A stretch of 24,593 bases of DNA from a virus. A program made the translations under genes and the position numbers. The stretch covers positions 1 to 24,593 of IMG/VR virus record IMGVR_UViG_3300037891_000279; one strand, written 5' to 3'. Shown here one piece after another: positions 2,781 to 21,189 of this stretch (positions are counted from its first letter, which is position 1; each line of letters begins with the position of its first letter). The notes beneath the pieces are model-generated. The model had not been told where the DNA came from and made no database searches. It worked only from the letters and a program-made list of their open reading frames with translations.

Positions 2781-3223
2781 TACATAGTGATAATGTAGAA
2801 GAACTGGATGGCATACTATGGTTAGATGACCAAGTACTAGACGATAAAAACATGGAAGGCGATAGTCTAGGTATGAGAAGAATACAGTCGCCAATGAAAA
2901 GTATATATCCTTTGAGATATATGATAGAAGATGAGATTAGTTATTTAAAGCACAGAGGGAATACCTTTATAGATAGTACAGGAAAAATTATTATAAAGGA
3001 AAAGAATAGAAATGCTAGACTAATATATCATAAGATTGTAAAAACAGATTTAAAAGACGTAGCCGCTGTAGTATGGCTAGAGGGAGTTCCTTTTCCTTTC
3101 ATAGAAAAGAGACCGCCCCCAGCAGAATATACATGGGCAGGAGTGCTACATTTATCAGGTTTCCCATGGAAAGTATGGGAATATTGCGAACACAAGAAAA
3201 AAGATACATGGAGAAAAGTATGA
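2750..3223 (+). CDS. Hypothetical phage protein, 157 aa
   Basis: I do not recognise the family. The protein is soluble-looking, with no signal peptide or membrane segment, and is rich in charged residues. It has a Trp/Pro-rich C-terminal third (EKRPPPAEYTWAG, FPWKVWEYCEHKKKDTW). The ATG at 2750 has GAGGAA close upstream and overlaps the oxygenase by 31 bp. The stop overlaps the next start as ATGA. Its place in the coupled accessory cluster suggests expression with the oxygenases, but no function can be given. Confidence 0.75.
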   Translation: MQTIQFPIFVIHSDNVEELDGILWLDDQVLDDKNMEGDSLGMRRIQSPMKSIYPLRYMIEDEISYLKHRGNTFIDSTGKIIIKEKNRNARLIYHKIVKTDLKDVAAVVWLEGVPFPFIEKRPPPAEYTWAGVLHLSGFPWKVWEYCEHKKKDTWRKV

Positions 3224-3591
3224 AAAAATTAATGTTTTGGGTTATAGATTGTTGGAGAGTTGTTATGGATAATAGATTTAATCCATTGAGGCATATTCCA
3301 GACCCATCAATACAAGCGTATTTTACACTTGTACTGTTTACTATGTGGTCAGTATTTTTTGGATTTATTGCAACATATTATATGGGCTGGTATGGGTACG
3401 ATGTAGTAACATCTATCATAGTCCACTTAGTAATTGTAATACCAATTATATTTACCAACATTATTTTTCAGGAAGCTGAAAGAGATGGACGTAACTGGTA
3501 CGTAGATTATAGAGAAGACCAGTGGAAAAGAAAGTTATTTCCACGAGGTAAACCTAATGTAATCAAGTGGGATATAGATAAAGAAGCATGA
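3220..3591 (+). CDS. Small membrane protein with two transmembrane helices
   Basis: A 123-residue protein. Two hydrophobic segments stand out, about residues 33-55 (YFTLVLFTMWSVFFGFIATYY) and 61-83 (DVVTSIIVHLVIVIPIIF). They flank a very short loop and are followed by a charged tail. I place the start at 3220, because this ATG overlaps the previous stop as ATGA and has GGAG 6 bp upstream; upstream in-frame starts would run deep into the preceding gene. It is probably an inner-membrane hairpin protein with both ends on the same side. It lies two genes before the cytochrome c. Its function is unknown. Confidence 0.75.
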   Translation: MKKLMFWVIDCWRVVMDNRFNPLRHIPDPSIQAYFTLVLFTMWSVFFGFIATYYMGWYGYDVVTSIIVHLVIVIPIIFTNIIFQEAERDGRNWYVDYREDQWKRKLFPRGKPNVIKWDIDKEA

Positions 3592-4004
3592 GTCAATGGC
3601 ATGGTGGAAAAGGTTCAAAGAGACGCAAGTCCGATGAACAAGCTTATCGAGATAATTACGATAAGATTTTTAATAAAGGAGTAGAGATGGGAAACGAAGA
3701 CGCGCAACAGTTAATGATTGCACTAGAGACATGTATATGTTATGTCGCGTATACAAGCTTAAATAGTGGTGGGCAAAAGGAAAGAGAAATGACATGTTGC
3801 CCTAGGTTTATACCTAGTGGTAATGGATTATCTTTTAATCAGAAAGCTTCACAAATGGATAAGTGTTTAGCCTATGATATAGAGTTTCAGAGATGGGATG
3901 ATATAGACTTAGAAACTATAACAGACTGGCATGTAATACAAGAAGATGACTTTGAAGAGCAGTGCAATGAATTATACGGCGATAATATGCCGGACGTAGA
4001 ATGA
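3588..4004 (+). CDS. Hypothetical phage protein, 138 aa, with GGKGSKRR N-terminus
   Basis: The first 28 residues (MSQWHGGKGSKRRKSDEQAY...YDKIF) resemble the basic GGKGS...W/YDxIF N-terminus found in many small phage proteins of unknown role. The remainder is acidic and carries three clustered cysteines (ETCICYV, MTCCPRF) that could bind metal. An in-frame ATG at 3687 with GGAG 5 bp upstream could give a second, shorter product (105 aa) that lacks the basic segment. It is coupled on both sides by ATGA. No function can be assigned. Confidence 0.75.
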   Translation: MSQWHGGKGSKRRKSDEQAYRDNYDKIFNKGVEMGNEDAQQLMIALETCICYVAYTSLNSGGQKEREMTCCPRFIPSGNGLSFNQKASQMDKCLAYDIEFQRWDDIDLETITDWHVIQEDDFEEQCNELYGDNMPDVE

Positions 4005-4447
4005 GAGAGCTAGGAATGACATTAGTAGGTTGTCTAGTAATTGTAACCTTCTTTACACTTAAAGTATATCCAAGCTTAGAGTACAAAGGTTTCTCTAATA
4101 GTAGTTCTTGTACAGGTAAATGCTATGAAGAATATGTAGCACTTAACGGCACATCAGTAGAGATTGAACAAAAGAAAAAGGCTTTAGCAGCAACAGACCC
4201 ATTCAGTGATATTAGAAGTCTATGGTCGGGCTGTGTAGCTTGTCATGGAGCTAATGGTGAAGGTGGAGTCGGGCCTATGTTGGCTGGACAAACAGCAGAC
4301 TATATTAGTGGTAGACTTATATCATATAAGAATGGAGAACAAGTAGGGCCAATGAGTGCACTTATGTGGGGACAAGCAGCCAAGCTATCTCAGAAAGAAA
4401 TAGATACAATAGGTGAATTTATTGTAGCAGGTATGCCTGGTAAGTAA
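4001..4447 (+). CDS. Membrane-anchored class I cytochrome c
   Basis: A 148-residue protein. Residues 6-22 form an uncleaved-looking hydrophobic anchor, so the rest should face the periplasm. CVACH at residues 78-82 is a haem c attachment site (CxxCH), followed by GANGEGGVGPMLAGQ, typical of cytochrome c class I of the c553/c4/c5 kind. Met118 or Met122 is the likely distal haem ligand. The C-terminal LSQKEIDTIGEFIVAGM helix matches the last helix of the fold. An extra Cys37-x3-Cys41 pair precedes the domain. Such proteins carry electrons between respiratory complexes. Maturation would need host haem lyase machinery. It is ATGA-coupled to the previous gene and TAATG-coupled to an oxygenase. The haem domain is confident; its role in infection is unknown. 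Confidence 0.88.
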   Translation: MRELGMTLVGCLVIVTFFTLKVYPSLEYKGFSNSSSCTGKCYEEYVALNGTSVEIEQKKKALAATDPFSDIRSLWSGCVACHGANGEGGVGPMLAGQTADYISGRLISYKNGEQVGPMSALMWGQAAKLSQKEIDTIGEFIVAGMPGK

Positions 4448-4953
4448 TGTACAAAATAATAAGAAACTATCTTTCAGCAGATGAATGTGACGATTACATA
4501 GCAATGACTAGAGTACTTGACCCCAATCCTTCACTAGAAGTTGGATTAAAGACTACTAAGAAATCACATCATCATGTAAATAGAACTTATTGGACACTAC
4601 GAAGTATGACTAAACACTTCAGGCCACTGAAAGCACAAGCAGAAAAATATTGGGACTTACCTTCTGGCTCATTAAAGTTTACACATGCCCCTAAAAACTA
4701 TGCACATATTATGTGTTATGACGCACCAGGGCAGGGATTAGAGTGGCATGCAGAGCCTAACATTTCTACTGTGTCTGTTTCTATAAATTTATCAAATCCT
4801 TGGGAGTACGAAGGAGCAGACTTTGAATTAAGAAAAGCTCCTAGCTTAGAGTTATTTAGAGGGGACGCAATATTTTATTCTAGTACTATGGTACATAGAG
4901 TTGCTGACCTAGTGAGTGGCAGAAAGTTAAGTTTTGTTATGTGGTTAAAATGA
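4447..4953 (+). CDS. Fe(II)/2-oxoglutarate oxygenase (prolyl-hydroxylase-like)
   Basis: A 168-residue protein with the double-stranded beta-helix pattern of P4H/PKHD-type oxygenases. It shows YDAPGQGLEWHAE, then SVSINLSNPWEYEGADFEL, then RGDAIFYSSTMVHRV and GRKLSFVMW. Likely ligands are His101, Glu103 and His150, with Arg159 for 2-oxoglutarate. The first motif is HxE rather than the more common HxD. The N-terminal YLSADECDDYI helix is also usual for the family. It directly follows the cytochrome c gene (TAATG) and is coupled to another oxygenase by ATGA. The substrate is unknown. Confidence 0.85.
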   Translation: MYKIIRNYLSADECDDYIAMTRVLDPNPSLEVGLKTTKKSHHHVNRTYWTLRSMTKHFRPLKAQAEKYWDLPSGSLKFTHAPKNYAHIMCYDAPGQGLEWHAEPNISTVSVSINLSNPWEYEGADFELRKAPSLELFRGDAIFYSSTMVHRVADLVSGRKLSFVMWLK

Positions 4954-7190: not shown

Positions 7191-7591
7191 TAGGTTTCAC
7201 TTGTGGAGCTTTTGATTTATTACATGCAGGGCATATAGTTATGTTAAAGGAAGCTAGGGATAATTGTGATTATTTAATAGTAGGATTACAAACTGACCCA
7301 AGCATTGACAGGCAAGACAAGAATCAACCTGTGCAGTCTGTATACGAAAGGTATATACAACTTAGAGCAGTTAAGTATATTGATGAAATTATACCTTACG
7401 ATACAGAACAGAGTTTACGCGATTTGATAGAAGCTACAAAAATAAATATTAGATTTGTAGGAGAAGATTATAAAAACAAAGGTTTTACAGGGGACGATTT
7501 GGCAGAAGAGATTTACTATACGAGTAGACAACATTCTTTCTCTAGTACTACGTTAAGAAACAAGATATATGAAAGCAGTTATAAAAAATAG
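7187..7591 (+). CDS. Cytidylyltransferase-like nucleotidyltransferase
   Basis: A 134-residue protein. GAFDLLHAGH (7-16) contains the HxGH motif of the class I nucleotidyltransferase superfamily. ERYIQLRAVKYIDEIIPY (54-71) and the late SSTTLR (119-124) match the RfaE C-domain/TagD group, which activates sugar or polyol phosphates with CTP or ATP. The length is right for a stand-alone domain. The likely role is making an activated sugar for the phage glycosyltransferases, though the substrate cannot be read from sequence. It overlaps the helicase start by 23 bp. Confidence 0.85.
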   Translation: MIGFTCGAFDLLHAGHIVMLKEARDNCDYLIVGLQTDPSIDRQDKNQPVQSVYERYIQLRAVKYIDEIIPYDTEQSLRDLIEATKINIRFVGEDYKNKGFTGDDLAEEIYYTSRQHSFSSTTLRNKIYESSYKK

Positions 7592-8849
7592 AATACAAAT
7601 AATGGGTACACCTGATGTGTTCAATAAAATAGAAAAGGAGTTGACTTATACTTTACCTCCTCGTATGCCACAAGATCCACCTATGGTGCTTAAAACAATT
7701 AGATACATAAGGAAGGGGTTAATCTCTATTCCTGTCGGAAGACTAGATTTAATACCAGATGATTACGAAGTTTTCGATAAGCGTGTTAGTGTGCCGGCTG
7801 ACTTTCCTAAGTTTAAGTTTGACTTACGACCAAGCCAAAAAGCGGTTTATGACGAAGTAGATGACTGCGCTATAATTAACGCTTGGGTAAGTTGGGGTAA
7901 GACATTTACAGGTCTTGCTATAGCAGAAAAGCTTGGGCAGAAAACACTTGTTGTTACTCATACAACTACATTAAGAGCGCAGTGGGAAAAAGAAGTAAAG
8001 AAAGTATTTGGAATTGACGCAGGAGTAATTGGTGGTGGAAAGTTTAATGTAGAGCCTCCTATAGTAATTGGGAATATACAGTCATTATACAGACGAGTAG
8101 ACGACATAAAACACATATTCGGAACAGTTATATTAGATGAAATGCATCATGTATCAAGTCCAACCTTTACGCGTATAGTAGACGAAATGCCTGCTAGATT
8201 TAAGGTGGGACTAACAGGAACACTAGAACGAAAGGATGGAAGACATGTAGTGTTTAGAGATTACTTTGGAAATAATGTATTTAAACCACCAAAAGAAAAT
8301 TATTTGATACCTAAAATAGATATTTATAAGACAGATATAAGATTTATAGATGGCTCGTTTACGCCTTGGGCGGAACGAATCAACGACCTTACTCACAACG
8401 AAGAATATGTCCATAGTGTGAGTATGATAGCGGCAAAGTATGCTGCAGAAGGACATAAAGTACTGGTTGTCTCTGATAGAGTACATTTTCTAAAAAGATG
8501 TGCTAATTTAGTAGGAGATAAAGCAGTATCAATCACAGGCGATATGAACTTTGAAGAAAGAGAACAGGCTATGGAAGAAGTGAGAACAACTAAGAACATT
8601 CTGTTCGGCACACAATCTATTTTCTCAGAAGGCATATCATTGAATGAATTAAGCTGTTTAGTACTAGGTACACCAGTTAATAATGAACCTTTATTAACAC
8701 AGCTTATAGGTAGAGTAGTACGAAAACTAGATGGCAAAAGACAACCAGTTATCGTAGACATAAATTTAAAAGGCAAAACTGCATCCCGTCAAGCAAATGC
8801 TAGAATGGGGTACTATATTAGAGAAGGCTATGAGGTAGCCGTATTATGA
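7569..8849 (+). CDS. UvsW-like superfamily II DNA helicase
   Basis: A 426-residue protein. LRPSQKAVYDEV is the Q-motif-like segment, AWVSWGKT (105-112) the Walker A, THTTTLRAQW motif Ia, DEMHH (190-194) the DExH box, GLTGT motif III, and QLIGRVVRKLDGK near residue 380 is motif VI. These match T4 UvsW and related phage helicases, which unwind branched DNA and drive recombination-dependent replication. The Walker A is unusual, with WVSWGKT instead of the common GxGKT. It is followed by an ATGA junction to the glycosyltransferase. Confidence 0.9.
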   Translation: MKAVIKNRIQIMGTPDVFNKIEKELTYTLPPRMPQDPPMVLKTIRYIRKGLISIPVGRLDLIPDDYEVFDKRVSVPADFPKFKFDLRPSQKAVYDEVDDCAIINAWVSWGKTFTGLAIAEKLGQKTLVVTHTTTLRAQWEKEVKKVFGIDAGVIGGGKFNVEPPIVIGNIQSLYRRVDDIKHIFGTVILDEMHHVSSPTFTRIVDEMPARFKVGLTGTLERKDGRHVVFRDYFGNNVFKPPKENYLIPKIDIYKTDIRFIDGSFTPWAERINDLTHNEEYVHSVSMIAAKYAAEGHKVLVVSDRVHFLKRCANLVGDKAVSITGDMNFEEREQAMEEVRTTKNILFGTQSIFSEGISLNELSCLVLGTPVNNEPLLTQLIGRVVRKLDGKRQPVIVDINLKGKTASRQANARMGYYIREGYEVAVL

Positions 8850-9745
8850 ATCAAGAAACAAAAGAAATCCAACTGAATTTGGAAGAGATGAGAAAGATGA
8901 AAATTTTCTTGGCTACTCCAATGTATGGTGGTCAATGCTATGGACTATATACTAAGTCATTAATGGACACAACAAGTACATATATGCATCATGGAATTGA
9001 AATGCAAATTTATTATTTATTTAATGAGTCCCTAGTAACTAGAGCAAGAAACTATTGTGTACACAACTTTTTAAAGTCAGAGGCAACTCACATGCTATTT
9101 ATAGATAGTGATGTATCTTGGAAAGCTATGGACTTAATGTATATGACTCACTTAGTCTCAGAGAATATAAACAAGTATAAAATTATGACAGCACTGTATC
9201 CTAAAAAGACTATTGCATGGGAAAAAGTATTACATGCCGCCAAGTCTGGAAACTTTGATGAAAATCCTATGGGACTAGAAAAGGTAGCAGGAGACATGGT
9301 TTTTAATCCAGACCATGGAGCATACCCAGATGGTAGAGCTCCTATATATGAACCTGTAAAAGTAAGAGAGGCAGGTACTGGATTTATGATGATACATAGA
9401 AGTGTATTTGAAGAATACGCAGTAGCACATCCTGAACTAGAGTATACTCCAGACCACATACGAGAAGGAGAGTTTAGTATAGGAGAAAAAATACATGCTT
9501 ACTTTGACTGCATAATTAATGACCAGAACAGATATCTAAGTGAAGACTATATGTTTTGTGAGAATGTACGAAAGTTAGGTATAGATATATGGACACTACC
9601 TATGGTTGAGCTCATGCATAGTGGCAGTTATGTTTACCAAGGAAAGTTGGTAGATATGGCAGTGAATGACGTTCACGCTACACTGGCACCTGCTGATGCT
9701 GAGAAAATCGCAATGAACACAACTCGTCAGAACTCGGAAAAATAG
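8846..9745 (+). CDS. Anp1-like glycosyltransferase (GT-A fold)
   Basis: A 299-residue protein. KIFLATPMYGGQCYG opens the Rossmann-like domain. LFNESLVTRARNYCVHNFL and THMLFIDSDVSW (DSD, about 92-94) are the donor-binding segments of the Anp1/GT62-like phage glycosyltransferases. Later AGTGFMMIHRSVF and LSEDYMFCENVRKLGIDIW fit the acceptor/metal half (SED...). It probably transfers a sugar to DNA, a virion protein or a host surface glycan; the acceptor is not known. The ATG at 8846 overlaps the helicase stop. An internal ATG at 8897 in front of KIFLATP is an alternative start. Confidence 0.82.
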   Translation: MNQETKEIQLNLEEMRKMKIFLATPMYGGQCYGLYTKSLMDTTSTYMHHGIEMQIYYLFNESLVTRARNYCVHNFLKSEATHMLFIDSDVSWKAMDLMYMTHLVSENINKYKIMTALYPKKTIAWEKVLHAAKSGNFDENPMGLEKVAGDMVFNPDHGAYPDGRAPIYEPVKVREAGTGFMMIHRSVFEEYAVAHPELEYTPDHIREGEFSIGEKIHAYFDCIINDQNRYLSEDYMFCENVRKLGIDIWTLPMVELMHSGSYVYQGKLVDMAVNDVHATLAPADAEKIAMNTTRQNSEK

Positions 9746-9748
9746 TTC

Positions 9749-9777
9749 TTGACACAATCTTGGAAATTTGATATAAT
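9749..9777 (+). promoter_or_regulatory. Consensus sigma70 promoter with extended -10
   Basis: TTGACA at 9749-9754 and TATAAT at 9772-9777 are separated by exactly 17 bp, and TG lies one base before the -10 element. It sits in one of the only two real gaps on the + strand, just after the glycosyltransferase stop. Transcription would begin near 9784 and read into the unknown 111-aa gene, SSB, peroxiredoxin and the gp47/gp46-like pair. The AAATTTG stretch before the -10 is shared with the second promoter at 14037. Confidence 0.9.
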
Positions 9778-9828
9778 ATGTTATTATTTAATTGGAATGA
9801 GATATTAAAAGTAAGCAAAGGAAATGTA

Positions 9829-10164
9829 ATGGACACCATAACAATCCTACGAATTATTACTTTCAAACTTACACCCAAAAATTACAACGACCGAGTGTTT
9901 AAATTTTATGAACACTACTATGGCGGTCAGTCGTTTCTCTTGAATCCTGAGAAATTGATGAACGCCGGTCGCAGCTACTCAGACAAAGAAGTAGTGGAAT
10001 ATGCAGGAGTCGCATCGTTCCGCAATTACTTTGAGTATCAGCAAACCAAAGACTCCACACTTGACCTTCTGATGTTACCAATATCAGAAGATATTATTAC
10101 TAAAAACAGACTGCTTGACATAAAAAACGGCAGGATTCATTTTATGTTCGAGGAGACACAATAG
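9829..10164 (+). CDS. Hypothetical phage protein, 111 aa, first gene after promoter
   Basis: I do not recognise the family. I place the start at the ATG at 9829, which has AAAGGAAA 5-12 bp upstream. An in-frame ATG at 9778 abuts the -10 element and would lie upstream of the expected transcript start. The protein is soluble-looking, with an aromatic N-terminal third (FKFYEHYYGGQSF) and no signal peptide or membrane segment. Its position ahead of SSB in a strongly promoted unit suggests a replication- or takeover-related role, which is an inference from context only. Confidence 0.75.
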   Translation: MDTITILRIITFKLTPKNYNDRVFKFYEHYYGGQSFLLNPEKLMNAGRSYSDKEVVEYAGVASFRNYFEYQQTKDSTLDLLMLPISEDIITKNRLLDIKNGRIHFMFEETQ

Positions 10165-10174
10165 GAGAATTATT

Positions 10175-10804
10175 ATGGCAATAGGCTTTAATGTAACCAA
10201 GGGCTCAGCCCAAAAAGATAAAATATCAACTTATAACTACGCGGATAAGGAAGACCACAAGGTAAGACTAGTGGGCGACTTACTCCCTAGATATGTCTAC
10301 TGGATTAAAGGAGAGAACAACAAAAACATCCCTATGGAATGTTTGTCATTTGACAGAAACTCTGAAACCTTTAATAACATCGAACACGACCACGTAAGAG
10401 ACTTTTACCCAGACTTAAAGTGTGGATGGTCTTATGCGGTCCAATGTATCGACTACTCAGACAATTCAGTTAAAGTGTTGAATCTTAAAAGAAAATTGTT
10501 TGACCAAATTATTGTAGCTATGGAAGACTTAGGTGATCCAACATGCCCAACAACTGGTTATGACATTCATTTTAAAAGAAAGAAAACTGGACCTCAGGTA
10601 TTCAACGTTGAGTATCAGTTAGCTGTCTTAAAATGTAAAAATAGAGAACTCTCAGAAGAAGAGCAACTAATGATTAAAGACCTAAAATCTATGGATGACG
10701 TACTTCCTAGACCTACAGCTGATGCACAGTTGGAGTTACTAAGAAGAATTAACAACCAAGATGGCGGGGCTGAAACAGTAGACTCAGAGTTTGACGTATC
10801 ATGA
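10175..10804 (+). CDS. Single-stranded DNA-binding protein, gp32-like
   Basis: A 209-residue protein. Its middle has the features of phage gp32-type ssDNA-binding proteins: a stretch with many aromatic and basic residues (FYPDLKCGWSY, LNLKRKLFDQI, GDPTCPTTGYDIHFKRKKTG). The tail is acidic (GGAETVDSEFDVS) of the type that binds partner proteins. AGGAG upstream of the ATG is one of the best ribosome sites in the window, as expected for an abundant protein. It lies in the block with the recombination nuclease genes. The peroxiredoxin start overlaps its stop as ATGA. Confidence 0.82.
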   Translation: MAIGFNVTKGSAQKDKISTYNYADKEDHKVRLVGDLLPRYVYWIKGENNKNIPMECLSFDRNSETFNNIEHDHVRDFYPDLKCGWSYAVQCIDYSDNSVKVLNLKRKLFDQIIVAMEDLGDPTCPTTGYDIHFKRKKTGPQVFNVEYQLAVLKCKNRELSEEEQLMIKDLKSMDDVLPRPTADAQLELLRRINNQDGGAETVDSEFDVS

Positions 10805-11307
10805 TTGGAGTAGGAAACATATTTCCTGACTTTCACATGATTGGAGTGGATGAAAGCAATAGCTTTTTAGATTTAGATGTATTAGCACCCAGTACTTGGA
10901 CTGTTATGTATTTTTATCCAAAAGACTTTACTTTTATCTGCCCTACCGAGATAGCAGGAATGGACATGTTAGTGTCTGAAGCAGATGTTGTTGGCGTTAG
11001 CGGTGACAACGAGTTCTGTAAGTTAATGTGGAAAGAGTCAAACGACTTAATTAGAAACATTAACCATATCCTAGCAGCAGACTGTGGCTTGAAATTAGCT
11101 TCTAAACTAGGAATAGTAGATAAAGCTAATGGAGTATGCTACAGAGCTACTTATATCATTGACCCAGAGGGGGTTATCCAACATGTATCAGTTAACGCAC
11201 TAGATACAGGCAGAAATGCCAATGAAGTACTAAGAACACTGCAAGGCTTAAAAGCTGGTGGACTTACAGGTTGTGAATGGCAACCAGGAGAAGACTTCGT
11301 AGCGTGA
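10801..11307 (+). CDS. Peroxiredoxin (AhpC/TSA family)
   Basis: A 168-residue protein. MYFYPKDFTFICPTE (36-50) is the typical peroxidatic-cysteine motif with Cys47, and a second cysteine in GGLTGCEWQPGED (Cys158) sits where the resolving cysteine of typical 2-Cys enzymes is found. The TYIIDPEGVI strand is also standard. The enzyme would reduce hydrogen peroxide or organic peroxides using a thioredoxin- or AhpF-like donor from the host. It lies between SSB and the nuclease pair in the same promoter unit, so it should be made at the same time as replication proteins. Its start overlaps SSB as ATGA. Confidence 0.93.
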   Translation: MIGVGNIFPDFHMIGVDESNSFLDLDVLAPSTWTVMYFYPKDFTFICPTEIAGMDMLVSEADVVGVSGDNEFCKLMWKESNDLIRNINHILAADCGLKLASKLGIVDKANGVCYRATYIIDPEGVIQHVSVNALDTGRNANEVLRTLQGLKAGGLTGCEWQPGEDFVA

Positions 11308-12254
11308 TATTATTTACCGCCGATTGGCATATTAAACTTGGGCAGAAGAATGTACCATTAAGTTGGGCATGTTCTCGTTATGAGATGTTCTTTGAGCAAA
11401 TCCAAGATGTTATTGCGGATAATAATTGTGACTTACACATCATTGGTGGGGACTTGTTTGATCGAGTCCCTAGCATGGATGAGTTAACTCTGTACTTTGA
11501 TTTTATAAAGCAGGTTACTATAAGAACAATTATTTATGACGGAAATCATGAAGCAACAAGAAAAAATAAAACTTTCTTTAGTAATTTAAAGAAGGTTACA
11601 AGTAGTATCAATCCTCTAGTAGAAGTGATTGACTCTACATATTACGAAGATAACTGGGCAATATTACCTTACGCAGACTTACATAGAAAAGATGCAATAG
11701 AAAACATTGATGCAGATATCTTATATACTCATGTTCGTGGAGAGATACCACCTCATGTAGTACCAGAAGTAGATTTAGAAAGATTTGATAAATTTAAAGT
11801 TGTGTTTGCTGGAGATTTACATGCTCACGAGAATACTCAAAGAAATATTGTATACCCAGGCAGCCCAATGACAACATCATTTCATAGAAACCAAGTCCGA
11901 ACGGGGTACTTGTTAATAGACGGATTAGAATGGAAGTGGGGAGGTTTTGACTTACCACAACTTATTCGTACTAATGTAACAAATCCTGACGACATGGTTG
12001 CTACAGACTTTCACCATACTATATATGAGTTGGAAGGAGATGTGCAAGATTTAGCAAAGGTTAAGAATACAGAACTACTAGATAAGAAAGTAGTAAAACG
12101 AGAAATGGAAGCAACTCTTAAATTAAGTCAAGATATGACAATTTCAGAAGAGTTGATAATGTATCTAAGTGAAATCTTAAGTCTGGACGAAACAAAAATA
12201 CCAAACATTATAGGAGTGTTTAATGATTATTCTAAAGAAGCTGAAGTGGGATAA
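11277..12254 (+). CDS. Recombination nuclease subunit, gp47/SbcD/Mre11-like
   Basis: Up to 325 residues. All metallophosphoesterase motifs are visible: DWH (16-18), GGDLFD (57-62), GNHE (89-92), THVRG (His152) and GDLHAH (179-184), with PGSPMTTSFHRN after them, as in Mre11/SbcD/T4 gp47. It should pair with the ATPase encoded next to process DNA ends for recombination. The start is uncertain: the ATG at 11277 overlaps the peroxiredoxin by 31 bp, while a GTG at 11304 would overlap its stop as GTGA and give the more usual short N-terminus (VILFTADWH). Confidence 0.93.
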   Translation: MATRRRLRSVILFTADWHIKLGQKNVPLSWACSRYEMFFEQIQDVIADNNCDLHIIGGDLFDRVPSMDELTLYFDFIKQVTIRTIIYDGNHEATRKNKTFFSNLKKVTSSINPLVEVIDSTYYEDNWAILPYADLHRKDAIENIDADILYTHVRGEIPPHVVPEVDLERFDKFKVVFAGDLHAHENTQRNIVYPGSPMTTSFHRNQVRTGYLLIDGLEWKWGGFDLPQLIRTNVTNPDDMVATDFHHTIYELEGDVQDLAKVKNTELLDKKVVKREMEATLKLSQDMTISEELIMYLSEILSLDETKIPNIIGVFNDYSKEAEVG

Positions 12255-14028
12255 TTGCTTTTCTTATGGAGAAGATAATGAGTTAGACTTAGACAGGTCG
12301 ACTCTTACACAGCTAGTAGGAACAAACGGAGTTGGGAAATCCTCTATCCCCTTAATTTTAGAGGAAGTATTATTTAATAAAAACAGTAAAAATGTTAAGA
12401 AGGCAGATATCGCAAACCGTTATATCAATAATGGTTATAATATCTCTCTATCTTTTACAGTGGATGATGATGAGTACTGTATTAGCGTATTAAGACGCGC
12501 AGCACTTAAGTGTAAACTTACAAAAAATGGAGAAGATATAAGTTCGCACACAGCGTCGAATACATACAAGACGCTTGGGGAAGTATTGGGTATAGATTTT
12601 AAGACCTTTTCTCAATTAGTTTACCAAAACACCAATGCATCATTACAATTTTTAACTGCGACTGATACTAATAGGAAGAAGTTCCTAATTGACTTATTGA
12701 AATTAGACGAGTATGTCTCGTTCTTTGAGATTTTTAAAGAAGCTGTAAGAGTAAAAGCAAACGAAATCACAGGAACCAATGCGAAACTTGCAACAATTCA
12801 GAAATGGTTATCAGATAATATTCTCGAGGATAGTGAGATACTCGATAAATTAGTTTTACCAAAAATTAATGAAGAAGATGAAGAGTCTTTACGTTCTTTA
12901 CAGTTACAATTTGAAAATATCTCCGAAAAGAATAAAAAAATAAATCTCAATGAAATGCTCAAACAGCAGGTAAAAAACATACCACTAGAGCAGTACAAAG
13001 AAGATATAGAATCACATCCTGAGCTACAAGATACTTCTCAGATAGAACAAGACATGGGCAGAATTAATCATAATCTTGCACACCACGAGGGACTATTGAG
13101 TGAGTACGAAAGTCAGACAGGTAAATGTCCTACATGCGGTCAGGACATAGAAGTAGACTTCACAGAAGAAAAACTAGAACTTCATAGGGAAGGGATAAAG
13201 ACGGCAAAGTTAAACTACTTAGAAAAGAAAGCAGATTTAGGTGAGATACAGCATGGAAATAAAATACATAGGGCAGCAACCAAAGGAATCGAAGACTGGG
13301 AACAAACCTACAGGTCTATTGACCATGAGCTCCCGACAAGAGCAGTGGACGAAGAAGCCGTCGCAGAACAAATTAAAGAGCTTCGTAAAAAGATTACCGA
13401 TAGTAGGTCGGATCTTCAAGAGGTTATAGATGAAAACACCAGAAGAGAAAGGCATAACACCAGAATTAGCATCATACTGGAACAGACTGATGGATTTCAA
13501 AGGGAGCTTGATGCAAGTCAATCTAGTCTTGAGAGTTCAGAAAGCAAATTGGCGATTCTTGAAACACTCAAAAAAGCATTTAGTACGAACGGACTACTAG
13601 CTTATAAAATAGAATCTCTAGTAAAAGAACTAGAAGTTCTAACAAACGACTACCTCGCAGAGTTTAGTGATGGTAGATTTAGTATTAACTTTGTAGTGGA
13701 GAACGATAAATTAAATGTGGAAGTCTCAGATAACGGCAATATTATTGACATTCTTGCTCTTTCTAGCGGCGAGTTAGCTAGAGTTAATATAGCAACCTTA
13801 GTAGCAATACGAAAACTAATGGCTTCTATAAGTCGTAGTCAAATCAATGTGCTATTCTTAGATGAGGTAAACCAAGCCTTAGATGAAGTTGGTAAAGAGA
13901 AGGTAGTGGAAGTATTACTTAAAGAAGAAAACCTCAATACATATATGGTATCGCATGGTTGGACTCACCCACTATTACAAAAGATAGAGATAACTAAAGA
14001 AGATAACATTAGTTACTTAGAAGGATAA
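12223..14028 (+). CDS. Recombination ATPase subunit, gp46/SbcC/Rad50-like
   Basis: A 601-residue SMC-type protein. GTNGVGKSS (33-41) is Walker A. A charged coiled-coil half leads to the zinc-hook CPTC (Cys302, Cys305), and a second coiled-coil half returns. LSSGELARVN (about 511-520) is the ABC signature, VLFLDEVNQALDE (about 543-555) is Walker B with D-loop, and SHGWTHP carries the switch histidine. It is the ATP-driven partner of the upstream nuclease, and the genes overlap by 32 bp. It is similar in size to T4 gp46 and complete. It ends the first promoter unit. Confidence 0.94.
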   Translation: MIILKKLKWDNCFSYGEDNELDLDRSTLTQLVGTNGVGKSSIPLILEEVLFNKNSKNVKKADIANRYINNGYNISLSFTVDDDEYCISVLRRAALKCKLTKNGEDISSHTASNTYKTLGEVLGIDFKTFSQLVYQNTNASLQFLTATDTNRKKFLIDLLKLDEYVSFFEIFKEAVRVKANEITGTNAKLATIQKWLSDNILEDSEILDKLVLPKINEEDEESLRSLQLQFENISEKNKKINLNEMLKQQVKNIPLEQYKEDIESHPELQDTSQIEQDMGRINHNLAHHEGLLSEYESQTGKCPTCGQDIEVDFTEEKLELHREGIKTAKLNYLEKKADLGEIQHGNKIHRAATKGIEDWEQTYRSIDHELPTRAVDEEAVAEQIKELRKKITDSRSDLQEVIDENTRRERHNTRISIILEQTDGFQRELDASQSSLESSESKLAILETLKKAFSTNGLLAYKIESLVKELEVLTNDYLAEFSDGRFSINFVVENDKLNVEVSDNGNIIDILALSSGELARVNIATLVAIRKLMASISRSQINVLFLDEVNQALDEVGKEKVVEVLLKEENLNTYMVSHGWTHPLLQKIEITKEDNISYLEG

Positions 14029-14036
14029 TATATATC

Positions 14037-14065
14037 TTGACAAGAAACTTAAAATTTGTTATAAT
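14037..14065 (+). promoter_or_regulatory. Second consensus sigma70 promoter with extended -10
   Basis: TTGACA at 14037-14042 and TATAAT at 14060-14065 are 17 bp apart, with TG one base before the -10. It fills the gap between the Rad50-like gene and the glutaredoxin. Transcription would start near 14072, leaving a leader of about 15 bases that contains AAAAAGGAAC as ribosome site. It shares AAATTTG before the -10 with the promoter at 9749. It should drive the glutaredoxin, nuclease and ribonucleotide reductase genes. Confidence 0.9.
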
Positions 14066-14086
14066 ATATTTATAAAAAGGAACAAC

Positions 14087-14318
14087 ATGCAAGTAGTAAT
14101 ATACAGTATACCGAATTGTACATATTGTGTACAAGCAAAAAAATTTAGCAGAAGCTCATCCTAAGGTGGATGAGACTATATACAAGATGATGGGAGATGG
14201 TTTTAAACCAACAGAAGTTAGGGAACTATTCCCTAGTGCAAGAACATTCCCACAGATTATAGTGGATGGAGAAAAGATAGGCGGATTTACAGAACTCAAG
14301 GCCTTATTGGATGGTTAA
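14087..14318 (+). CDS. Glutaredoxin, split by a frameshift at an A7 run
   Basis: The ATG at 14087 has AAGGA 6-10 bp upstream and lies right after the promoter. It reads MQVVIYSIPNCTYCVQAKK, with the CTYC redox site (Cys11, Cys14), then ends at TAA (14162). The next frame (+1), open from about 14127, gives LAEAHPKVDE..., LFPSARTFPQI and DGEKIGGFTELKALL, the usual C-terminal half with the cis-Pro TxPQI and GG motif. The two halves join cleanly at the A7-T3 run at 14137-14146; removing one base restores a complete glutaredoxin of about 76 residues. It would reduce the NrdA/NrdB enzyme. Sequencing error, mutation or slippage are all possible. Confidence 0.8.
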
Positions 14319-14799
14319 TTCAAGAAGAAAAGGTCATGACGCTGAGATACGCGTATCAGAAATGCTTAATAGAATTACTGGCGAGGTGTTTGTACAGACA
14401 CCTGGTTCAGGTTCTGGCAAGATAAAAGGTGATTTAATGGTAGCTCACAAACATAATCTCTTTACAATAGAGGTTAAGTTTTATCGTGATATGGCATTTA
14501 ATCACAAAATATTTACTCAAAAGAGTAATACCTTTGTGGGTTGGTGGTCTAAGTTGTGCAGACAGGCAACTGAAATGGGACAAGAACCTCTACTTATATT
14601 TAAGGAGAACCACTCACAGTGGTACGTGGCAACGACAAGAAAGCCATGTTACAAAAAACATATGTACATAAACTGGTTGGGGTGCTATGTCACCTTCGCT
14701 GAACAATTTTTAGAAACACAGGAGTTAAAGTTTACAAATGGCGATAAAATTTACGAGCCATGGAGAGTCGATCCCGAATGGGAACTTACTAATAGTTGA
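14311..14799 (+). CDS. PD-(D/E)XK nuclease, Holliday-junction resolvase-like
   Basis: A 162-residue protein. RRKGHDAEIRVSEML puts Glu12 in the first helix, GDLMVA gives Asp41, and FTIEVKF gives Glu54 and Lys56. Together these form the E...D...ExK core of archaeal-resolvase/VRR-type nucleases. The G-S-G-S-G-K-I-K-G-D segment is typical of small phage resolvases that cut branched DNA before packaging. It overlaps the glutaredoxin stop by 8 bp and the flap nuclease start by 62 bp. The exact DNA structure it cuts is inferred from context with the recombination and helicase genes. Confidence 0.82.
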   Translation: MVNSRRKGHDAEIRVSEMLNRITGEVFVQTPGSGSGKIKGDLMVAHKHNLFTIEVKFYRDMAFNHKIFTQKSNTFVGWWSKLCRQATEMGQEPLLIFKENHSQWYVATTRKPCYKKHMYINWLGCYVTFAEQFLETQELKFTNGDKIYEPWRVDPEWELTNS

Positions 14800-15595
14800 T
14801 GGACTCAACTTGGCGTTCAGATGGAAACATCAGGGCAAGAATGACTTTGAGCATGATTATGTTAGAACAGTACAATCATTAGCAAAGTCTTATGACTGCG
14901 GAGAAATCGTAGTCTTAGGGGATGGCGGTAGTAACTACCGTAAAGAAATATACCCCGAATACAAAGCAAACAGAAAAGAGAGATATGCAGAACAGACTGA
15001 GAAAGAGGAACGCGAGTTCCAAGAGTTCTTAGCCGAGTTTCAAGTTACTATGAATACTTTAAAGTATAAGGGACATCTTACGCTAAAATATGCAGGCGTA
15101 GAGGCTGATGATATAGCCGCTCTTATCTGTCAGAACAGAGAGAATCTAGGTATACAAAATATCTGGATGATTTCATCAGATAGAGACTGGGATTTACTTA
15201 TTGACGGAAACATAAGTAGATTCTCAACAGTCACTAGAAAAGAAACAACACTTCATAATTGGGACGAGCATTATGATTTTGACCCAGAGTACTTCTTAAC
15301 ATATAAGTGCTTGACAGGGGATAAAGGAGATAACGTTCCAGGAGTTGATGGTATCGGTCCAAAGAGAGCGACACAGATTATTCAACAATATGGAGATATT
15401 TTTGATATTATGGCGAGTTTGCCAATCGAAGGAAAGTATAAATTCATACAGAACTTAAATGAGTTCGGAAGTGAAGGACTTGAGGTTGGTATTAAACTCA
15501 TGGATTTAACATATGACGTAGATGGAGCAGTGCTCGGTCACGCCAAAGAGATTATAGGATTAGTAGAAAATTATGTCAGTGAAAATAGACTTTAG
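14738..15595 (+). CDS. 5'-3' exonuclease / flap endonuclease (FEN family)
   Basis: A 285-residue protein. LLIVDGLNLAF (Asp21), VVLGDGG (Asp62), YAGVEADDIAA (Glu122, Asp124, Asp125) and ISSDRDWDLL (Asp148, Asp150) are the metal-binding acids. LTGDKGDNVPGVDGIGPKRA (193-212) is the helix-three-turn-helix DNA-binding segment. These are the hallmarks of the 5' nuclease family (T5 D15, T4 RNase H, the Pol I N-domain). It would remove RNA primers or flaps during replication, complementing the family A polymerase. No later in-frame start lies before the first catalytic Asp, so the long overlap with the previous gene seems real. Confidence 0.93.
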   Translation: MAIKFTSHGESIPNGNLLIVDGLNLAFRWKHQGKNDFEHDYVRTVQSLAKSYDCGEIVVLGDGGSNYRKEIYPEYKANRKERYAEQTEKEEREFQEFLAEFQVTMNTLKYKGHLTLKYAGVEADDIAALICQNRENLGIQNIWMISSDRDWDLLIDGNISRFSTVTRKETTLHNWDEHYDFDPEYFLTYKCLTGDKGDNVPGVDGIGPKRATQIIQQYGDIFDIMASLPIEGKYKFIQNLNEFGSEGLEVGIKLMDLTYDVDGAVLGHAKEIIGLVENYVSENRL

Positions 15596-17348
15596 TAAAG
15601 ATAGTCTTTTAGATGAATTTGCATTAGCAACTCTAAAAGATAGATATATGGTAGGTGATGAAACTTCACCCCAAGAAGCTTTTGCGCGTGCCGCAATGGC
15701 TTTCGCAGATGATGAGGCTCATGCACAAAGACTATATGACTATGTAAGTAAACTATGGTTTATGTTTGCTACGCCAGTATTATCAAATGGAGGCACTAGA
15801 AGGGGATTACCTATTAGTTGCTTCTTGAATTATGTAGACGACAGTAGAGAGGGAATAACAGACCACTTCACAGAAAATGCTTTCTTATCTTCTTTTGGAG
15901 GAGGTATCGGAGGCAGCTGGAGTGATGTTCGTGCGTCTGGCTCAAAAACTTCAAAAGGAAGTGAGAGTACAGGGGTAGTACCTTTTATGAAGGTAGTGGA
16001 CGCAGAGATGCTCGCTTTCTCACAGGGAGTAACTAGACGGGGAAGTTACGCAAGTTATCTACATATGAGTCACCCCGAGATTGAGGAATTTTTAGATGTA
16101 CGGAAGCCAACTGGTGGCGATATTAACCGTAAGTGTACTAACATCCATCATGCTGTGGTTATTCCTGACGCTTTTATGGAGCTTATTCACTCCGCTTCAA
16201 AGTATCCTGATTTTGACGACAGCTGGGATCTTACAGATCCTCATTCCCTTGAAGTAAAGAAAACTGTATCTGCGAGAGCGTTATGGGTTAAAATACTTCA
16301 GAATAGAATGGAAACTGGAGAGCCTTACTTAATGTTTGAAGATGCGGTAAACAAAGATTTGCCCGACTTTCAGAAGAAGAAAGGAATGAAAGTACATCAC
16401 AGTAATCTGTGTTCGGAAATAACACTCGCTACAAACGAAGAACGAACAGCCGTTTGTTGCCTGTCTAGTGTCAATCTAGAGTATTATGATGAGTGGAAAG
16501 AAGTACCTGCATTTATACCTGACTTAGTCAGAATGTTAGATAACGTACTTGAATACTTTATTAACAATGCTCCTGAACAACTAGAGAAAGCTAAGTTTAG
16601 TGCTCAGCGGGAGAGGAGTATTGGACTTGGTGCTATGGGCTTTCATGCGTATTTGCAGAAGAATGGAATACCATTTGACAACCCAATGGCAACAGGCGCT
16701 AATTCTGAGATGTTCCAATATATCAAAACACAAGCGGAAAACACAACTAGACAACTAGCTGTTGAGAGAGGAGCCTGCCCAGACGATGATACTTGTTCTG
16801 TAAGGAACGCTCATCTATTGGCAATCGCTCCTAACGCTTCGTCTAGTATTATATGTGGGAACACAAGTCCAAGTATTGAACCATATAGAGCAAATGCCTA
16901 TACTCAAAAGACAAAGTCTGGTAGTAACTTAGTAAAGAATAAATTTTTAGACAAGTTGCTAATGAGTAAAATAGGACATAGTGATGTATACGATAGCACT
17001 TGGAAAAGTATTGTTGCAAACAGAGGTAGTGTACAACATCTTGACATACTCGACGAGTGGGAAAAAGATGTATTTAAAACAGCCGTAGAAATCAATCAAG
17101 CATGGATTGTAGAACACGCTTCAGTGAGACAGGAATATATCTGTCAGTCACAAAGCGTAAACCTATTTTTCCCACCTGATGTAAACAAAGGCGATTTACA
17201 TAATGTCCATATGTTAGCATGGGCGAAAAATTTAAAAACATTGTATTACTTGAGAAGTGAAGCTATCAGTAGAGCTGATAATGTTTCTAATCAAGCTAAA
17301 CGAGAAATAATATTTGAACAGTCAGACTGTTTAAGTTGCGAGGGATAA
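15573..17348 (+). CDS. nrdA: Ribonucleoside-diphosphate reductase, class Ia-type large subunit
   Basis: A 591-residue protein. Active-site cysteines are Cys83 (PISCFLN), Cys280 (NLCSEI, with Glu282) and Cys295 (AVCCLSS). The radical-path tyrosines are the pair in KTLYYLRS (about 558-559), and the C-terminal swinging pair is CLSC (Cys586, Cys589). It reduces ribonucleotides to deoxyribonucleotides. The first catalytic cysteine comes only 83 residues in (225 in E. coli NrdA), so the ATP-cone that mediates dATP feedback inhibition is absent, as in many phage enzymes. It overlaps the flap nuclease by 23 bp and abuts NrdB. Confidence 0.96.
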   Translation: MSVKIDFSKDSLLDEFALATLKDRYMVGDETSPQEAFARAAMAFADDEAHAQRLYDYVSKLWFMFATPVLSNGGTRRGLPISCFLNYVDDSREGITDHFTENAFLSSFGGGIGGSWSDVRASGSKTSKGSESTGVVPFMKVVDAEMLAFSQGVTRRGSYASYLHMSHPEIEEFLDVRKPTGGDINRKCTNIHHAVVIPDAFMELIHSASKYPDFDDSWDLTDPHSLEVKKTVSARALWVKILQNRMETGEPYLMFEDAVNKDLPDFQKKKGMKVHHSNLCSEITLATNEERTAVCCLSSVNLEYYDEWKEVPAFIPDLVRMLDNVLEYFINNAPEQLEKAKFSAQRERSIGLGAMGFHAYLQKNGIPFDNPMATGANSEMFQYIKTQAENTTRQLAVERGACPDDDTCSVRNAHLLAIAPNASSSIICGNTSPSIEPYRANAYTQKTKSGSNLVKNKFLDKLLMSKIGHSDVYDSTWKSIVANRGSVQHLDILDEWEKDVFKTAVEINQAWIVEHASVRQEYICQSQSVNLFFPPDVNKGDLHNVHMLAWAKNLKTLYYLRSEAISRADNVSNQAKREIIFEQSDCLSCEG

Positions 17349-18308
17349 ATGAGTTTATTAAAAGAAAGAGAATACTATAAACCTTTTCAATATCCTTGGG
17401 CATTTGAGAACTATAAAAAACAACAACAAATGCATTGGTTACCTGAAGAAGTACCATTACAAGACGATATAAAGGATTATAAAGAAAAATTAAGTGAAGG
17501 CGAAAGGACATTGCTAGACAATATCTTTAAGTTTTTCACACAGGCAGATGTAGATGTATGTGGAGGCTATGCCCACCACTACTTGCCTACATTTAAACAA
17601 CCAGAAGTAAGAATGATGCTTGTCAGTTACGCTGCTATGGAAGCAGTGCATCAAGAAGCATATTCTTTACTATTAGAAACTTTAGGTAAGTCAGAAGACA
17701 TGTACCAAGAGTTTTTTGATATTGGTGCTATGATGGAGAAACATGAATATCTACAAGATTTCAGCATGGAAACTCCATATGACATGGCAAAAACAATGGC
17801 GGTATATAGCGCATTTACAGAAGGAGTACAGTTATTTAGTAGCTTTGCGATTCTTCTTAACTATCCAAGACATAACTTAATGAAAGGAATGGGACAAATT
17901 GTTACATGGAGTATTCGTGATGAATCCTTACATGTTGAAGGTTTGTCAAAACTATTCAGAACATTCATTGCAGAAAATCCTGAGTTGTGGAACGATAAGT
18001 TAAAATACGAAATATACTGTGCTGCAGAAAAGACAGTAGAGTTAGAAGATAACTTTATTGATATTTGTTTTGATAAAGCAGATATACCAGATTTGACAGC
18101 AAAAGAAGTCAAGGAATATATTAGATATATTGCAGACAGAAGGTTACTGGGAATAGGTATGAAGAAGATTTTTCATAGTACTGAAAACCCCTTGCCTTGG
18201 ATTGACATGCAAGTCAACGCAGTTGAGCATACCAACTTTTTTGAAAACCGTTCTACTGAGTATGCTAAAGCTAGTACACAAGGCAATTGGCAGGATGTAT
18301 TCAAATGA
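17349..18308 (+). CDS. nrdB: Ribonucleoside-diphosphate reductase, radical-generating small subunit
   Basis: A 319-residue protein. Metal ligands are visible at the expected spacings: Asp67 (TQAD), Glu98 and His101 (EAVH), Glu158 (FTEG), Glu192 and His195 (DESLH). Tyr105 stands seven residues after Glu98, where the tyrosyl radical of class Ia proteins sits. The C-terminal tail of this family docks into NrdA. The gene starts immediately after the NrdA stop, with GAGGG as ribosome site. Together with NrdA and the upstream glutaredoxin it forms a full dNTP-supply module. Confidence 0.96.
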   Translation: MSLLKEREYYKPFQYPWAFENYKKQQQMHWLPEEVPLQDDIKDYKEKLSEGERTLLDNIFKFFTQADVDVCGGYAHHYLPTFKQPEVRMMLVSYAAMEAVHQEAYSLLLETLGKSEDMYQEFFDIGAMMEKHEYLQDFSMETPYDMAKTMAVYSAFTEGVQLFSSFAILLNYPRHNLMKGMGQIVTWSIRDESLHVEGLSKLFRTFIAENPELWNDKLKYEIYCAAEKTVELEDNFIDICFDKADIPDLTAKEVKEYIRYIADRRLLGIGMKKIFHSTENPLPWIDMQVNAVEHTNFFENRSTEYAKASTQGNWQDVFK

Positions 18309-18511
18309 GTTCAGAATTACCAACACAAACAATTACAATAGATGAAACAACACATGACGTATCGTCATTATCTAAAGACCAACAAAGTATAGTTAATGCG
18401 ATAAACAAATGTGATGTTGACCTAGAGGACTTAAAACACAAGATGGCTATAACACAGACTGCTCGACAGGCTTATGTTAACGATCTTGGCGACCAGTTAA
18501 AGGAAGAGTAA
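18305..18511 (+). CDS. Small conserved-looking phage protein, 68 aa (DUF6447-like)
   Basis: The start at 18305 overlaps the NrdB stop as ATGA; the next gene starts on its stop (TAATG). The pattern TITIDETTHDVSSLS, a helix with DLEDLKHKMA, then QTARQAYVNDLGDQL resembles small phage/bacterial proteins with TITIDGKxYxxxxLS...QTARxAYxxAL, which I believe is DUF6447. The first part looks like a short beta hairpin and the rest like an amphipathic helical pair. The function of that family is unknown. The position between RNR and the glycosyltransferases gives no further clue. Confidence 0.72.
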   Translation: MSSELPTQTITIDETTHDVSSLSKDQQSIVNAINKCDVDLEDLKHKMAITQTARQAYVNDLGDQLKEE

Positions 18512-19155
18512 TGAAAATATTCGTAGGCTATGAATCAGCATATCCTGAAATGTTTGAAGTGTGTAAGGCATCAATCTTACGATTTAATCCAACACACGAA
18601 GTTATACCTTTAATTACTTCGGAATTAGAGGAACAAGGAATCTACTATAGAAAAGAAAAAGGAAATACCGAATTTGCTTTTACTAGATTTCTTGTACCTC
18701 AACTTTCCAACTACATGGGATATTCTCTATTCTGTGATGGTGACTTTCTATGGAGATGTGACCCACAAGAGATAACTCATTTTAAGAAAGATAATGAAGA
18801 AGTTATGTGCGTACAACATGCAGACTTAATGTTTGACCAATACACTAAGATGCATGATAAATTAAACAAACCTTATGAGAAAAAATATTGGTCATCTTTA
18901 ATGTACTTTAATAATAAAGAGTGTACAATGCTAAATGAGTGGTATGTGAACAATGCTGCCGCTAAACATTTACATGGATTTACTTGGGCTAGTAACTTAG
19001 GTTCTTTACCTGCTGCTTATAATGCTCTAGTAAATTATTACGATTTTGGTGAAAGAGCCAAAGGAGTACATTTTACAGACGGTGGACCATGGATGGGTAT
19101 TTACGACCATGACGAATACTGTAAAGAATGGACAGACATATATAATTCATTATAA
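18511..19155 (+). CDS. Glycosyltransferase, GT8-like
   Basis: A 214-residue protein. MKIFVGYES opens the nucleotide-sugar domain. EFAFTRFLVPQLSNYMGYSLFCDGDFLW (54-81) is the characteristic GT8 region, with FTRF before the hydrophobic strand and the metal-binding DGD (76-78). SSLMYFNN and GPW...GI fit later GT8 positions. It would transfer a sugar from a UDP-sugar. It starts a block of glycan-related genes joined by TAATG junctions. The acceptor could be host envelope or virion protein; not determinable here. Confidence 0.82.
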   Translation: MKIFVGYESAYPEMFEVCKASILRFNPTHEVIPLITSELEEQGIYYRKEKGNTEFAFTRFLVPQLSNYMGYSLFCDGDFLWRCDPQEITHFKKDNEEVMCVQHADLMFDQYTKMHDKLNKPYEKKYWSSLMYFNNKECTMLNEWYVNNAAAKHLHGFTWASNLGSLPAAYNALVNYYDFGERAKGVHFTDGGPWMGIYDHDEYCKEWTDIYNSL

Positions 19156-21182: not shown

Positions 21183-21189
21183 TCTAAAT
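21166..21189. terminator. Weak inverted repeat at the convergent gene ends
   Basis: ATTTAGA at 21166-21172 pairs with TCTAAAT at 21183-21189 across a 10-base loop that includes TTTTT. It lies exactly where the + and - strand genes converge and overlap. The stem is AT-rich, and no U-run follows it clearly in either direction, so termination activity is doubtful. Confidence 0.25.

Follow-up and report, generated by a model that had tools for sequence, protein, structure and literature searches.

Predicted membrane-anchored c-type cytochromes form a family in T5-like and T4-like phages, with a two-helix membrane protein as a likely associate

Plastocyanin occurs in cyanophages, and the photosynthetic electron-transport genes of these viruses have changed the views of the energetics of infection. 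PTOX is known from cyanophages (PMC7472177) and alternative oxidase (AOX) from prasinoviruses and cyanophages (PMC12584671), as described in the accessible parts of both papers. All three are, like the cytochrome and the AOX discussed below, virus-encoded electron carriers or quinol oxidases, but they belong to photosynthetic settings, unlike the phages analyzed here. In the excerpt of PMC8190135, viral SoxD auxiliary genes are described that share a c-type cytochrome motif with the present gene but serve sulfur oxidation, occur with SoxC and lack the motif in some copies. Another gene of the respiratory chain comes from a viral fraction of the Indian Ocean, in the form of cbb3 oxidase subunit I sequences for which SAR86 host predictions are mentioned (PMC3474794, excerpt); they encode part of an oxidase, however, rather than a cytochrome c carrier. 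According to PMC8115048, the nitrogen-cycle phages studied there showed no cytochromes, and the terms cytochrome, oxidase and electron are absent from PMC9599517. No description of the viral cytochrome family considered here was found in the literature, which is weak evidence because coverage comprised open-access PMC only. This family is a candidate respiratory counterpart of the cyanophage genes in phages of heterotrophic ocean bacteria.

The window, i.e. the whole stretch of DNA analyzed here, comprises positions 1 to 24,593 of the virus record IMGVR_UViG_3300037891_000279. The features around the cytochrome gene, denoted cytC, are:

3208 to 3591, plus strand: TM2, a membrane protein with two transmembrane helices, candidate partner (viral relatives, alignment A6, AF2 helices; start codon 3208 picked by eye)
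3588 to 4004, plus strand: a 138-aa protein between TM2 and cytC, not known as a member of the unit
4001 to 4447, plus strand: cytC, predicted membrane-anchored class I c-type cytochrome, 148 aa (open reading frame, PF00034, AF2 fold, viral relatives)
4004 to 4078, plus strand: cytC residues 2 to 26, N-terminal helix, predicted membrane anchor (DSSP of the AF2 model)
4109 to 4123, plus strand: cytC residues 37 to 41, C-T-G-K-C, the start of the C-x3-C-Y motif (invariant in alignments A1 and A2)
4232 to 4246, plus strand: cytC residues 78 to 82, CVACH haem c attachment site (sequence)
4364 to 4366, plus strand: cytC Met122, presumed sixth haem ligand (M122-W123 invariant in A1; c4 alignment)
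4447 to 4953, plus strand: neighbour on the downstream side with likeness to 2OG-Fe(II) oxygenases (PHROG 61), no established member of the unit

The cytC open reading frame starts with ATG and overlaps the upstream frame (3588–4004) through ATGA, whereas the downstream junction is TAATG, with the stop and the next start sharing base 4447, so that the ATGA coupling proposed in the original prediction holds on the upstream side only. The 138-aa upstream protein has no Pfam, PHROG or NCBIfam match. Judging from its sequence and its AF2 model, cytC is a real, phage-encoded gene for a class I c-type cytochrome of the respiratory (c4/c5-like) type, predicted to be membrane-anchored. An N-terminal anchor, a CVACH haem site and a class I core with candidate Met ligands had been read from the DNA alone, and each is borne out: residues 7–26 are hydrophobic and lie in a modelled helix (2–26), the haem site is C78VACH82, and PF00034 matches with 28.3 bits (cut-off 21.3; E 4.4e-6), with Met122 being, of the two candidate axial ligands (Met117 and Met122), the one that is invariant in alignment A1 (20 rows). 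In a phmmer alignment, the ALMWGQAAKLS segment of cytC is matched to the segment TMIMRGVAAKLS of Pseudomonas stutzeri cytochrome c4, and a phmmer search of the PDB gave matches to c4/c552/c554 cytochromes with E-values as low as 5e-11.

A structure model had been named beforehand as a check, and the AF2 model (built on 64 sequences; mean pLDDT 83.7) has the class I cytochrome c fold at about residues 67–145, preceded by helices at 2–26, 40–49 and 52–65. The top structural matches are bacterial c-type cytochromes, with 8yts_A (Z 12.7, rmsd 1.5 over 79 aa) ahead of Vibrio c554 (Z 11.9). Somewhat lower comes 8smr_K (Z 10.8, rmsd 2.0 over 80 aa), which is chain K of the bc1-cbb3 supercomplex of P. 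aeruginosa; sequence comparison also gave matches of chains in this entry to cytochrome c4 and to a cbb3 subunit. The viral structure library BFVD held no match to cytC at E<=0.001, and there is no PHROG for it. The c4/c5 cytochromes of Gammaproteobacteria (c4: 1etp, 8smr chain K) are like cytC in the fold of the haem domain and in the Met region, but c4 is di-haem, and with its single CxxCH cytC does not qualify as a c4. Assignment to SoxX (TIGR04485) was rejected as well (19 bits, curated cut-off 61). The CuA domain of Cox2 is a cupredoxin domain with the motif CxExCxxxHxxM; a Cox2-type, CuA-like site at C37/C41 was discarded because CTGKCYEEYV contains no His and the model has coil and helix there, without strands.

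The cytochrome is no one-off but belongs to a large viral family. In IMG/VR, 34 of the 44 candidate stretches found with the single cytC sequence, and 434 of the 462 found with an alignment, encode relatives (the loci taken from the latter scan are the best 80 of the 434). Among 50,697 deposited phage records, there was no relative of cytC at E<=0.1, and two cytochrome queries yielded no cytochrome match in any of them. Conservation was assessed on 189 viral loci (some contigs repeated) that, after three partial or ambiguous sequences were dropped, reduce to 114 distinct sequences, each covering at most 77 residues ahead of the haem site, the site itself and the whole of the remainder. All 114 have the hydrophobic segment, C-x3-C-Y, CxxCH and the Met, and the distal region invariably reads Ser, one or two residues, Met and then W, Y or F. 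The cysteine motif is CxGxCY in 110 sequences and CYDECY in four. The C37-x3-C41 pair, regarded as an oddity in the original prediction, is thus not peculiar to the window phage because all 114 viral sequences keep C-x3-C-Y, and so do those Halieaceae homologues that share the architecture of cytC. The median dN/dS of 0.256 (136 of the 1596 pairs, with dS of 0.05–1) points to purifying selection on the viral genes.

A chimeric assembly around the gene, a possibility raised at the outset, is rejected: cytC has the same neighbours in two other IMG/VR contigs (L001 and L002), the 434 relatives are viral, and the window is collinear with the 88,165-bp contig of L002 (G001) at 93–99% identity. An artefact in which a host gene ended up on a misassembled contig is of negligible probability, because cytC keeps its neighbours in other contigs, has relatives in hundreds of viral stretches and falls in a single viral clade. 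The differences from G001 are replaced stretches at 3224–3587 and around 4432–4447; window positions 7191–24593 match at 98%. Within cytC, the codons of residues 1–26 are 60% identical in nucleotide sequence to L001/L002 and the remainder is 98% identical, and the N-terminal anchor segment (window 4001–4078) has been swapped by recombination relative to these contigs. By eye, the family seems to have two recurring types of anchor.

Cellular relatives were searched for in one genome per species. The best full-length matches are proteins of Halieaceae (L039–L045; 38–45% identity in the best segment), which agree with cytC in their anchor, C-x3-C-Y, turn and haem domain. These anchored cytochromes of the OM60/NOR5 group (L042, L043 Luminiphilus syltensis NOR5-1B) also share with cytC the CxxCH, the glycine-rich character of the turn and S-x-x-MW, and in some genomes adjoin a TM2 homologue, but they differ in having only 34–42% identity (7 rows), an N-terminus without MRELG and a clade of their own. 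Other Halieaceae proteins (L046–L056) match in the haem domain alone, with 55–60% identity over residues 75–143. These proteins and the relatives found in SAR86-like genomes are c5-like and differ from cytC in their signal-like N-terminus and C-x5-C. ‘SAR86-like' is itself an inferred label for a gammaproteobacterial order with genomes of 0.8–1.8 Mb and a GC content of 30–39% in the loci read.

In total, 74 of the 140 Halieaceae genomes match cytC at E<=1e-18, with both cytochrome types mixed in this count. In the gammaproteobacterial sample, 11 of the 369 genomes match, the N-terminal part being present only in the Haliea-type G052; the match of G069, which starts at position 33, is another protein. 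Alphaproteobacteria were dismissed as donors, with one match among 385 sampled genomes (E<=1e-15), confined to the haem domain. Of the 203 genomes of the small-genome order, 143 match the cytochrome profile at E<=1e-8; among the matches listed, none starts before profile position 42, and therefore the proposed SAR86-like host seems to have no direct cytC homologue. The best matches in this order are c5-like. In most of the 15 loci read, a di-haem c4-like gene is close by; L249, the one locus followed (by eye) over its entire length, has a DsbA-like gene between the c5-like and c4-like genes.

In the tree, the 57 viral rows group together in a single clade (98/94), as do the 23 rows from Halieaceae (98/96), within the limits of few columns, long outgroup branches, an outgroup split across the sides of the branch, an unsure root and no mixture model. 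The donor search and tree proposed beforehand thus give Halieaceae as the nearest full-length cellular kin and place the viral rows apart. The 57 rows include L036 and L037. Like L038 (left out of the tree on account of ambiguous bases), they come from MAG contigs assigned to Sphingobacteriales and Synechococcus; T4-like phage genes surround the cytochrome in all three contigs, which were read as misbinned phage and rejected as host evidence. Seven of the 30 Halieaceae loci were left out, L208, L221 and L222 by a distance filter and L230–L233 as the c5-like type.

Judged by a T5-type terminase (in the near-identical G001, 50% identical to that of Pectobacterium phage My1), a helicase and a D12-like endonuclease, the window phage is T5-like. 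The best matches of the window endonuclease are 36% identical, one of them being annotated D12, and that of the helicase is 44% identical; the phages concerned are T5-like. Other carriers are T4-like: of 50 records, 15 contain Gp23 and 35 do not, many of the latter being fragments, and in the T4-like G003 the terminase is 56% identical to that of Phage C48C1. Some carriers share few proteins with G001 or G003, and one such (G010) has Gp23. By these markers, cytC appears in at least two phage lineages (T5-like and T4-like) and in unplaced phage contigs.

T5-like phages infect Gammaproteobacteria, and the host of the cytC carriers is probably a marine gammaproteobacterium. Chromosomal TM2 genes occur in 57 of 203 genomes of the small-genome order, and over 119 aa the TM2 of the T4-like G003 shares 87% identity with one of them; the second TM2 of G014 reaches 81%. 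The IscU encoded by a T5-like contig (L146) has its two nearest relatives in genomes of this order (67% and 65%; next 63%; 360 sampled). Six viral IscU have been placed with gammaproteobacterial homologues, one of them near SAR86 (PMC5332604, accessible part). Such similarities suggest that at least some of the phages carrying cytC have SAR86-like hosts; for the window phage, the evidence is weaker, its TM2 being 51% identical to six sequences of the small-genome order and 32% identical to four from Halieaceae.

The c4/c5 carriers of Gammaproteobacteria serve bc1 and cbb3, and the c4/c5 likeness of cytC therefore favours a route to an oxidase. The favoured reading, held with a little more than even confidence on the grounds of sequence and structure model, is that cytC carries quinol-side electrons to a host terminal oxidase and would thereby keep the infected host respiring. 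The host Sec machinery would insert the protein N-in, with R2 in the cytoplasm and one membrane helix; the host cytochrome c maturation (Ccm) system would load haem c at C78/C81, with His82 and Met122 as ligands; and the haem domain would stay tethered at the periplasmic face. Electrons would come from the quinol side through host complex III, possibly via TM2, and would pass to a c-oxidising terminal oxidase of the host, of the cbb3 or aa3 type. In a lytic infection that halts host gene expression, cytC would sustain electron flow, the proton-motive force and the supply of ATP or redox equivalents. Against this reading, inspection of the window genes showed no gene for an oxidase, bc1 or haem maturation. 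If cytC is functional, viruses may determine how fast infected marine bacteria respire and how much oxygen they use. With this family, the upkeep of host respiration by lytic phages becomes a testable question.

The two-helix protein TM2 had been proposed as a partner of the cytochrome. Gene order in phages and in Halieaceae agrees with this, and TM2 is a likely associate of cytC by that measure, although in the window one gene separates the two. TM2 has neither a Pfam family nor a PHROG, and its AF2 model, with long membrane helices at 33–58 and 66–92, matches no PDB fold at E<=0.001. Across the 47 rows of alignment A6, 20 columns are invariant, one of them being that of H73, a His within the second of the two helices. 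Its viral family comprises 358 of 382 candidate stretches. Among the best 80 of the 358, cytC lies within 6 kb in 31 loci and is absent from 49, some of which are cut by contig ends; because the TM2 queries were drawn from phages holding cytC, such shares are upper estimates. TM2 directly adjoins cytC in 23 loci (11 cytC types at <90% identity). Counted by distinct types, 14 of 35 TM2 occur with cytC and eight of these 14 are adjacent to it, compared with 2.27 expected for a random gene slot, a level reached in 9 of 20,000 simulations. As an independent line of evidence, a TM2 relative is present in 31 of the 140 Halieaceae genomes (E<=1e-4). In four of the five Halieaceae loci read (L601–L604), TM2 and the cytochrome are adjacent and co-directional, joined by an ATGA overlap in L601, and in the fifth (L605) the match lies 300 bp away on the opposite strand; this ratio is not a frequency because the loci were chosen for close coordinates. 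The association with cytC offers an initial clue to the role of the TM2 family, a recurrent neighbour of the cytochrome in virus and cell alike.

The TM2 of L602 (4124–4690) has an extra N-terminal part (PTTLTPYEWEQWYAE) that resembles the one in another membrane protein adjoining the cytochrome in L042 and L045. The chromosomal TM2 genes of small-genome gammaproteobacteria (L606–L611) have varied surroundings with many small unknown genes and no cytochrome.

The adjacency in phages and in Halieaceae chromosomes, once with the ATGA overlap, fits an alternative in which TM2 and cytC are a small two-protein electron-transfer unit of bacterial origin, captured by phages as a pair: TM2 would take electrons from quinol, or dock the cytochrome to a quinol-oxidising complex, and pass them to haem c, with AOX sometimes added by phages as a second outlet for quinol electrons. 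The invariance of R23, Q36, W47 and H73 in 66 of 66 TM2 rows is in line with such a role, and so is the presence of signal-peptide-type cytochromes beside or near TM2 in a different kind of AOX phage (L572, L576 and L577). This alternative is nonetheless rated unlikely, given the 49 of 80 viral loci and the SAR86-like loci read in which TM2 comes without cytC, the remote TM2 relatives in Phage Melnitz and Phage C48C1 with no cytochrome match to either of two queries in deposited phages, and the lack of a PDB fold match for TM2. A stronger version, in which TM2 and the tethered cytochrome make up a captured respiratory module, is more doubtful still. This module would be the smallest set needed to pass electrons from quinol to cytochrome c, in place of host complex III or in addition to it, and in some lineages a phage AOX would join it. 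If this is true, the virus would equip SAR86-like and related bacteria with a branched quinol-to-oxygen pathway of viral making that does not depend on the expression of host genes.

AOX stands directly before or after cytC in 18 loci (seven cytC types, with at least four contigs counted twice), and the order is TM2-cytC-AOX-small protein in L432–L435. By its sequence, this neighbour is a genuine AOX: the L034 copy matches PF01786 with 221.9 bits (cut-off 22.7), the di-iron motifs E, ExxH, E and ExxH are invariant in the four aligned sequences, and mitochondrial AOX is matched at about 1e-35 (3vv9 at 2e-35), compared with a weak match to the PTOX PHROG (0.003). Six of 15 AOX types are adjacent to cytC, compared with 1.66 expected (77 of 20,000 simulations). 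In the scan seeded with a set that included cytC neighbours, cytC was found in 35 of 80 loci (best 80 of 508), a figure biased upward for that reason; the 31 of 80 obtained for TM2 may be too high in the same way. When the AOX of Phage C48C1 served as the query of a control scan, a cytochrome was found in 5 of the best 80 loci. AOX as a general partner of cytC is weakened accordingly, and on these counts the link is lineage-limited. AOX oxidises quinol, not cytochrome c; AOX is therefore no electron acceptor for cytC and would rather be a parallel outlet for quinol electrons. The AOX model, the one oxidase model applied, found no match in G001, the near-identical relative of the window. At E<=1e-5, the sole match of phage AOX in deposited phage records is a protein of Phage C48C1 annotated as hypothetical; no cytochrome match was found in this phage.

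AOX itself is common in marine phage contigs (L424–L502 and L505–L584; 508 of 594 candidate stretches). Four of the five cytochromes in the control scan (L572, L573, L576 and L577) are of a second type, with a signal-peptide-like N-terminus and without the anchor; three of them lie beside or near TM2, at 11 bp in L572 and L576 and at 157 bp in L577.

A further neighbour, sm53 (single-TM, 60–72 aa; L158:10444-10647 and relatives), has HPMKQ invariant in 10 rows and a viral family of 377 out of 461 candidate stretches. It adjoins cytC in 37 of the 38 first-set records that carry it. As an obligate partner sm53 is weakened by the scan that it seeded (best 80 of 377), in which cytC is present in 38 loci and missing within the flank examined in 42.

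The gene settings of cytC differ between groups, namely nrdA-(x)-nrdB-cytC-grx, uvsW-x-cytC-x-x-gp47-gp46 and the T5-like positions (names mostly by eye). Within eight genes of cytC in 90 records, nrdB recurs in 36 loci and glutaredoxin in 33 (names by eye), as would be expected if the cytochrome were metabolic cargo placed in a hypervariable region beside nrdA/nrdB/grx by the modular architecture of the phages, with no functional tie to TM2, sm53 or AOX. That AOX-TM2 adjacency does not exceed chance (3301 of 20,000 simulations), and that the TM2 and AOX queries came from cytC-holding loci, biasing the shares upward, are compatible with this explanation; it is set against a TM2-cytC adjacency above the gene-order expectation that recurs in bacterial chromosomes, and is considered quite improbable.

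Within the flanks examined, IscU was found in 20, an IscA-like gene in 14 and a ferritin-like gene in three of 86 cytC loci. In two phages, the ferritin-like gene (L119:10457-10897 and L127:10457-10897; Pfam match on the L119 copy) lies directly 3' of the cytochrome, and the window encodes a peroxiredoxin (10801–11307), as does Phage C48C1 two genes after TM2. Both could be taken to suggest that cytC feeds the detoxification of peroxide or oxygen, for example through a di-haem cytochrome c peroxidase of the host, and shields the cell from oxidative damage. Such a role appears very improbable: inspection of the neighbouring genes brought up no cytochrome c peroxidase, and thiol peroxiredoxins are not known to use cytochrome c.

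For the respiratory role favoured here, the points against are that the haem-domain-only identity to c5-like proteins exceeds that to the full-length Halieaceae proteins (55–60% versus 38–45%), that the proposed host seems to be without a direct homologue, that the AOX link is lineage-limited, and that G001, the nearest long relative of the window, has no TM2.

Several other features of the carriers deserve mention. No tRNA on which to base a host prediction was found in the window or in G001. The window contains a match to the glycosyltransferase family 29 (sialyltransferase) domain (PF00777) at 20553–21182 and, at 23168–24592 on the minus strand, a low-complexity, repetitive open frame rich in T-N-T-S-R units that aligns to G001 at several offsets and probably encodes a tail or fibre protein. 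In G001, the genes for a CHASE2-adenylate/guanylate cyclase, FecR, curlin-repeat and CsgG proteins are clustered (L168:9072-14392; Pfam), and the T4-like G003 has a CHASE2-like open reading frame at 44133–45971 (by eye).
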